Assembly (NCBI GenBank): GCA_019118445.1 | Contig: DWYY01000045.1 | Span: forward strand, 46,151-110,150 | Source of the DNA: Candidatus Eisenbergiella merdipullorum | GTDB taxonomy: Bacteria; Bacillota; Clostridia; Lachnospirales; Lachnospiraceae | Direction: 5' to 3' | Length of the DNA: 64,000 nt | In this document: positions 18,164-18,997 of the stretch, piece by piece | How positions within the stretch are numbered: position 1 is the first letter of the stretch | Layout of the letters: each line of letters opens with the position of its first letter | Notes under the pieces: model-generated | What the model was told of the DNA's origin: nothing | Seen by the model: the letters and a program-made list of their open reading frames with translations, nothing else | Databases searched by the model: none | Translations under genes and position numbers: made by a program

Positions 18164-18276
18164 ATCCTGTCCAACCTCCCTGCATCTGATTTCTGTCCGG
18201 TTCCCCACCGCAGCCAAGGCAGGCTTCCGGACGGACATCTGGTACATTCGTTACTGTCAGACTACCACAAAAGGAA

Positions 18277-18310
18277 GCGGGTATCAATCATTTTCATGTC
18301 TGATACCCGC
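18277..18310 (-). terminator. terminator-like hairpin of the ncRNA candidate
   Basis: 10-bp perfect inverted repeat GCGGGTATCA...TGATACCCGC followed on the minus strand by TTCCTTTTG. Confidence 0.65.
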
Positions 18311-18409
18311 TCCTAAACTATGCTATCCAATGGCCTATACCTCCATTTTCTCCTCTGCTCTTCTTTCCACTCCTTCTTTTCTTTTGTACTCATGTACCGC
18401 AACGGTTTT

Positions 18410-18449
18410 CATCTTCTGATGATCCATCGCATCTTCCGATGATCCTTCG
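18410..18449 (-). repeat. tandem 20-nt repeat inside the ncRNA candidate
   Basis: + strand CATCTTCTGATGATCCATCG then CATCTTCCGATGATCCTTCG; each folds into a 4-bp hairpin on the minus strand. Confidence 0.85.
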
Positions 18450-18968
18450 CCACTCAGATAAGTGTACTCGTTTCGCATTCGGTATTAGATTAGCATTGTT
18501 CCTTAAAGATTTTATTTTCACGTATCTGAAAGATTCTTTTCCTCTTTTCCGGATTCCTTTAAACTGAAAGCCCTATCTTCCGAAGTCCATCTATCATAAA
18601 TTTAGGTCTTTTGCTTTCAGGAATTCCTCCCCTCAGCCTGTCGATCTTGTTTTTTCCATGAAAAATGTCAACTTCTGTTTCTACTTCTAATGATAAAGAT
18701 CATTCTCGCTGCTTTCAGGGAATGTCCATTTTTAAAAGAATCTCAATTTACAGTTCCAAATTCCTTCAGATTTCTTCTTTCAATCTAAAGTCGTTCCTTC
18801 TGAAGATTCTCTTCCTCTTTCTGATCCGTCTTTAAGGCTTTTTCTATGAAATTGTTTTGTCCTGTTTCTTAAAAACATTCTGTTTTTAAGAAATAAAATT
18901 TACGTTTTCGGCGGTCCGTACCTCCTTCTTTCTTTTTTGTTTTTGCTCTTTTCTTTGTTTGTGACTTC

Positions 18969-18997
18969 ATTATATCCCCGCCTTTTTCGGTTGTCAA
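18969..18997 (-). promoter_or_regulatory. consensus sigma-A promoter of the ncRNA candidate
   Basis: Minus strand TTGACA (18992-18997), 17 bp spacer, TATAAT (18969-18974). Confidence 0.88.

Follow-up and report, generated by a model that had tools for sequence, protein, structure and literature searches.

The gap at 18.2-19.0 kb of the window, by which we mean the whole 64,000-nt stretch of DNA analysed here, is a conserved RNA gene of about 700 nt, a predicted transcription unit with its own promoter and terminator. Because the RNA carries repeated look-alikes of a ribosome-binding site, together with a mini-gene of five codons whose stop codon abuts the base of the terminator, we lean towards the view that it probably works by engaging ribosomes. 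The RNA family to which it belongs has no match in Rfam and is previously uncatalogued, although it may be present as an unnamed candidate in the supplements of surveys. To our knowledge, no described class fits an RNA gene made of ribosome-binding-site look-alikes, in which CCR stands in for the start codon and a mini-ORF is locked to the terminator.

The gap is bounded on one side by a GH3 gene on the minus strand (probable start at about 18163) and on the other by a LUD gene on the plus strand (from 19211), and its GC content is about 0.35 compared with about 0.55 in the flanking genes. The perfect minus-strand promoter reported in a first-pass annotation was confirmed in the sequence and is invariant in the genus: the -35 box, TTGACA (18992-18997), is unchanged in 12 of 12 genus homologues, and a 17-nt spacer separates it from a -10 box, TATAAT (18969-18974), which the genus alignment also supports and which places the predicted start at about 18962. 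Taken from promoter to hairpin, the predicted RNA covers 18265-18962 on the minus strand and is kept over its full length in the genus. Of 78 parsed relatives, 71 likewise have a promoter match ahead of the RNA. Directly 3' of the predicted start, a 5' tail reading CATAAACAAA or CACAAACAAA is conserved in many lineages (about 18948-18962 in the window).

No protein gene was found in the gap, given that its internal ORFs reach 56 aa at most and that the genus alignment contains frame-breaking indels throughout, yet has 5', central and 3' blocks that are nearly invariant. The earlier description of the gap as free of ORFs therefore holds for protein genes but not for translation signals, which are present in the form of a five-codon ORF (18313-18330) preceded by a good SD. 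A degraded gene or an IS element, which that annotation had named as findings that would speak against its reading, was not found either; what the gap holds is a conserved RNA with promoter and terminator. A mobile element was also considered, but the single viral match was judged from its sequence to be a false positive.

A DNA search of 61 genomes found the RNA, whole or in pieces, in 11 of the 12 other genus genomes, with 71-86% identity in the main matches, and short blocks of it in four other genera, which is conservation far beyond chance. Its own genome, that of Candidatus Eisenbergiella merdipullorum, contains one copy. We surveyed the family more widely by scanning a 25-base pattern from the 5' block over one genome per GTDB species. 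This returned at least 119 stretches, a set biased toward RNAs holding the type-A form of the element described below, since the seed pattern is itself type A; nearly all come from Lachnospiraceae or from broadly named Clostridia/Eubacteriales, as judged by title and sequence, and the exceptions among the matches listed amount to a handful of chance hits in Chlamydiae, Bacteroidetes and similar groups. With one mismatch allowed, the pattern occurs in 54 of 299 Lachnospiraceae genomes, against about a dozen chance matches for the reversed control. Among the matches listed, the family thus appears so far to be almost confined to Lachnospiraceae, a group that ranks with the most common bacteria of the human gut. 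Many genera of this group carry it, including Blautia, Anaerobutyricum, Eisenbergiella and Sellimonas. The relatives range from 195 to 938 nt (median 380), and at their most minimal they measure about 200 nt. Two copies were seen in a single genome in CAJTDK01 (L076 and L098, which differ in their terminal mini-ORFs, MIEKSE and MDSEVH) and in G319 (C41 and C122).

Each RNA consists of one to about eight copies of one element, in which a strong SD run is followed, at a fixed spacing, by a start-codon slot. Across 253 aligned copies the consensus is an SD-rich purine run, AGGTA, YRG and NCC, with the slot at a fixed distance. The slot is occupied by CCA, CCG or CCC in 158 of these copies and by ATG in 45, TTG in 37 and GTG in 6 (88 together), with other triplets in the remaining 7. 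Where the slot holds CCR (type A), an in-frame stop follows three codons later in 142 of 156 cases, whilst 33 copies from Blautia and its kin (type B) read AUG-NNN-NNN-UAA, with a variable third codon. Copies are commonly 50-70 nt apart in many relatives, and strict core copies number seven in Blautia wexlerae (L088), seven in A. hallii (L046) and eight in L132. The type-A element of the window, which is found in more than 100 loci, lies at 18899-18933 on the minus strand and comprises the SD run AAAGAAGGAGGU, ACGGACCG, a CCG slot (18909-18911) and AAA ACG TAA (TAA at 18900-18902). Type A never has an A at position 4, where type B and terminal elements often do, so that different constraints act on the element types. 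At position 7, an A occurs in 97% of type-A copies versus about 42% of type-B and terminal copies, and this A fits a local hairpin into which the type-A SD is able to fold (GG-A-GGU/ACC-A-CC) and which may add to the function of the element.

When computed against the 3' end of a genus 16S rRNA, anti-SD pairing energies were -13.1 kcal/mol for type A, -8.6 for type B and -11.6 for terminal elements, compared with -7.4, -5.1 and -6.7 kcal/mol for the respective same-base shuffles and -1.9 for random 13-mers; the PWM of the element scan contains AGGT, so that part of this energy is built in by selection, which is not true of the excess energy or of the slot and ORF rules. Conservation of type A, expressed as information content, rises at about -20 and fades after about +14 of the slot, a span similar in size to the stretch of mRNA covered by an initiating ribosome (the 30S/70S footprint). 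The possibility that type A is the end of an upstream ORF was considered and set aside, as an in-frame start upstream is not clearly enriched (26% versus 22% and 17%). There is no clear base-pair covariation inside the element across the family, and an outer stem enclosing it has little support in type A (t about -2) and none in type B. Comparison of native with swapped pairing energies does support, across the family, a hairpin that follows the element (t = -5.1); in the window, the 13-bp perfect stem picked out at first pass is indeed present just after the type-A element (18865-18893, minus strand), and related hairpins occur in several congeners.

The last element of the RNAs has a true start codon (TTG, ATG or GTG), five to eight codons and a stop (TAA, TAG or TGA), with MDSIV, MDSVV, MDTEH, MDNEQ, MDEIV, METEQ, MEIIEHF and others as the resulting peptides. 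In the window this terminal element (18313-18346, minus strand) comprises the SD GGAGGU and the mini-ORF TTG GAT AGC ATA GTT TAG (18313-18330; M D S I V stop), and the same layout is seen in the sequences of the genus alignment and in parsed relatives. One nucleotide after the stop codon lies the base of a terminator-like hairpin, GAGCGGGUAUCA...UGAUACCCGCUU (18276-18311, minus strand), with 16-nt arms that are 88% paired and a 4-nt loop. Of the hairpin and U-rich tract described earlier for the 3' end, the hairpin stands, but the U tract that follows it, CUUCCUUUUGUGG, is weak. Among the 70 RNAs whose terminator could be parsed, 68 have the mini-ORF stop between -4 and +2 nt of the hairpin base; the two exceptions are one stop at -8 and one mis-parsed stem. 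These copies are related by descent and so do not represent independent events. With a looser hairpin definition, 87% are in frame versus 12% and 1% in the other frames. The stronger argument is that the length of the ORF shifts by whole codons while the distance between stop and hairpin stays fixed. In addition, an unrelated mini-ORF occupies the same place in a second lineage (L042, L051, L076, L093 and others), with its stop at the hairpin and with peptides such as MIEGSE, MIEGFE, MIEESK, MIEVSK and similar. At the sequence level, the anatomy of the terminal ORF is strongly coding-like.

Several observations point to ribosome engagement: the anti-SD energy, the slot rule, conservation over a footprint-sized span, the locking of stop to hairpin, the mini-ORF of the second lineage, the AUG-NNN-NNN-UAA copies of Blautia and the stand-alone context discussed below. 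Whilst the conservation, the element, its slot rule and the ORF-hairpin lock are features of the sequences themselves, the binding of 30S subunits by the start-less elements is something we infer by analogy, and transcription of the unit, initiation at the terminal element and a role in the cell are likewise deduced. The start-less elements would bind 30S subunits without initiating, as is held for the STAB-SD of cry3A, while at the terminal element a ribosome would initiate, synthesise a very small peptide and come to rest against the hairpin. The bound RNA would thereby be protected and would hold or sample ribosomes, serving as a decoy for free 30S subunits or as a gauge of them, in loose analogy to 6S RNA and RNA polymerase. 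The further step, that arrays of start-less mimics capture or sense 30S subunits and control translation through ribosome sequestration or sensing, is one that we put forward tentatively, as a possibility that falls well short of being probable. The choice of CCR and the UAA nine bases on are not accounted for by simple 30S capture, which needs neither. If the RNA does hold or gauge ribosomes, it would represent an RNA-only control of translation capacity and a ribosome counterpart of 6S RNA; even otherwise, this is a sharply testable RNA family with named, cultured hosts.

Of the systems already described, the RNA would seem to work most like STAB-SD and minigenes, laid out as a sponge-like array. 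Lambda bar is a minigene of the relevant kind, a very short ORF with an SD that engages ribosomes. Other very short ORFs with SDs engaging ribosomes include those of the axe-txe leader and ycbK (PMC8708949), but leader minigenes act in cis on a gene, whereas here the units are arranged in tandem within an RNA gene that has its own terminator. The STAB-SD of cry3A mRNA from Bacillus thuringiensis is a start-less SD complementary to the 3' end of 16S rRNA, and is thought to bind 30S subunits without initiating (PMC4113751). A strong SD without a start codon at the proper spacing is likewise what the 158 type-A elements present (mean -13.1 kcal/mol). STAB-SD is, however, a single stabiliser in an mRNA leader, whereas one to several copies occur here in a stand-alone RNA, at a fixed spacing to a CCR slot and UAA and with the addition of a terminal ORF. 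6S RNA would be an analogue only if the RNA holds ribosomes in the way that 6S RNA holds RNA polymerase; it has another target and shares neither sequence nor structure, and so the comparison is an analogy only.

An array of this type might instead serve to bind a protein, as CsrB and RsmZ do. The element would then be bound by a translational repressor whose usual targets are ribosome-binding sites, which it covers; the RNA would titrate that repressor, and the likeness to an SD would be mimicry of the target mRNAs. We regard this as unlikely, albeit the alternative that survives best. The repeated copies, the variable linkers and length, the hairpins between copies and the strong constraint on primary sequence without clear covariation in the element would all fit, and CsrB and RsmZ similarly have repeated SD-like sites between hairpins with variable length and copy number. 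The element here is longer, however, and its last copy has a start codon and an ORF, the locking of which to the hairpin would be left unexplained. CsrA was considered as the partner and rejected: it scores above the cut-off in 6 of 18 RNA-bearing genomes and is absent from many that are at least 95% complete. The genome of the RNA described here is among the six (G000, contig C32:762-917, E 9e-22). Across 15 genomes, no gene was found to begin with the full element, bar one possible match (L155), and the search of these genomes for an mRNA regulon sharing the element gave the copies in the RNAs and near-control noise.

Another alternative is a cis-acting attenuator, in which a ribosome translating the terminal mini-ORF would mask the base of the terminator and so allow transcription to continue into the downstream gene, here GH3. 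The stop codon fixed at the hairpin base, with a short ORF beside the terminator, fits such a role, as does the weak U tract in the GH3 group, and by eye the stretch from the RNA to GH3 in the window shows no obvious promoter. Of 100 loci, 82 have the next ORF on the same strand; the next gene is GH3 at 34 loci and encodes a polysaccharide deacetylase-like protein at 17. Many other genes occur, however, and the next ORF is on the opposite strand in 18 loci; some of these 18 are spurious ORF calls, but about nine look genuine, with the next gene convergent (L052, L061, L111, L116, L123, L129, L144, L042 and L106). The regulated gene of a leader-peptide attenuator would always lie downstream on the same strand, which is not the case here. 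Several GH3 loci also have, by eye, their own promoter-like TTATGATA stretch after the RNA, and the array of start-less elements would be left unexplained, all of which makes attenuation, in our estimation, a rather poor prospect. Given that the neighbours differ and are sometimes convergent, we take the RNA to stand alone; across the loci compared, the common denominator is an independent RNA gene, for which a cis role is possible in some lineages. A promoter-like stretch, GTGGTAAAATG or GTGGAAATTA ... GGTTATGATA or AGTTATGATA, recurs before GH3 (L035, L037, L044, L053, L059, L062 and L064) and may be that of a particular sigma factor. On the upstream side of the RNA in Blautia loci, L088 among them, lie a divergently oriented enolase gene and, farther out, an RNase R-like gene, both being recognised from their protein sequence.

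It is also conceivable, though quite improbable, that the SD elements are mere stabilisers of the RNA against RNase J, in the manner of STAB-SD, and that the function lies elsewhere in trans, for example in base-pairing with mRNA or in a structural centre. Stabilisation of cry3A mRNA through 30S binding at a start-less SD has been reported (PMC4113751), and the genus version of the RNA does have a long structured centre with some compensatory pairs. The minimal relatives of about 200 nt (L098 and L036), however, are little beyond an element and the terminal element, which indicates that no other domain is universal, and conservation reaches well beyond an SD.

Membership of a known large RNA family (ROOL, GOLLD, OLE, raiA or HEARO), for which the size of about 700 nt and the host phylum might speak, can be set aside as exceedingly improbable, because neither the window, at gathering and permissive thresholds, nor 16 relatives at gathering gave an RNA-family match in Rfam and because most relatives are about half that size. 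Eight loci searched at E up to 0.1 likewise gave nothing besides a tRNA, and the sole Rfam matches in the flanks are a tRNA and a TPP riboswitch. The initial suggestion of a ROOL-like RNA is unsupported by these results; like ROOL, GOLLD and OLE, this is a long non-coding RNA of Firmicutes or their phages, but its anatomy is different, and where ROOL has about 600 nt and a constant multi-branched fold, the present family has a linear conserved core. The tRNA-Gly about 1.5 kb away, which had been noted as a further likeness, is real but not a constant neighbour, a tRNA being present in 2 of 16 relatives scanned with flanks. The portions of the literature that we consulted contain no description of this RNA, which may have a candidate number in the supplementary tables of large surveys, such as that of the human microbiome (PMC8040213).

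The first-pass view of a large ornate structured RNA is borne out in part, in that 16 of 102 predicted pairs show compensatory change in the genus alignment, but the core of the family is the linear repeated element. The pairing of CTGAAAGC with GCTTTCAG (18564-18571/18613-18620) that it had proposed is present in the window but is not conserved in the genus alignment. For a central block, GGAACAAUGCU (18492-18502, minus strand), RNAalifold predicts pairing with AGCAUAGUUU in the mini-ORF region (columns 643-652 with 824-833); this block is almost invariant, so that the pairing is not proven by covariation, and it is not general in the family. Within the genus, pairing is possible between the 5' UCACAAA and a UUUGUGG that lies beyond the hairpin, and a 5'-3' closing helix was on that account considered as a family feature and rejected, not being general across the family. 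Two further central blocks, GAGTACACTTACTTGAGTGACGAAG and GTACATGAGTAC, are not evident in the minimal relatives; they are conserved in the genus (18380-18480 of the window, minus strand), where they may form small hairpins.
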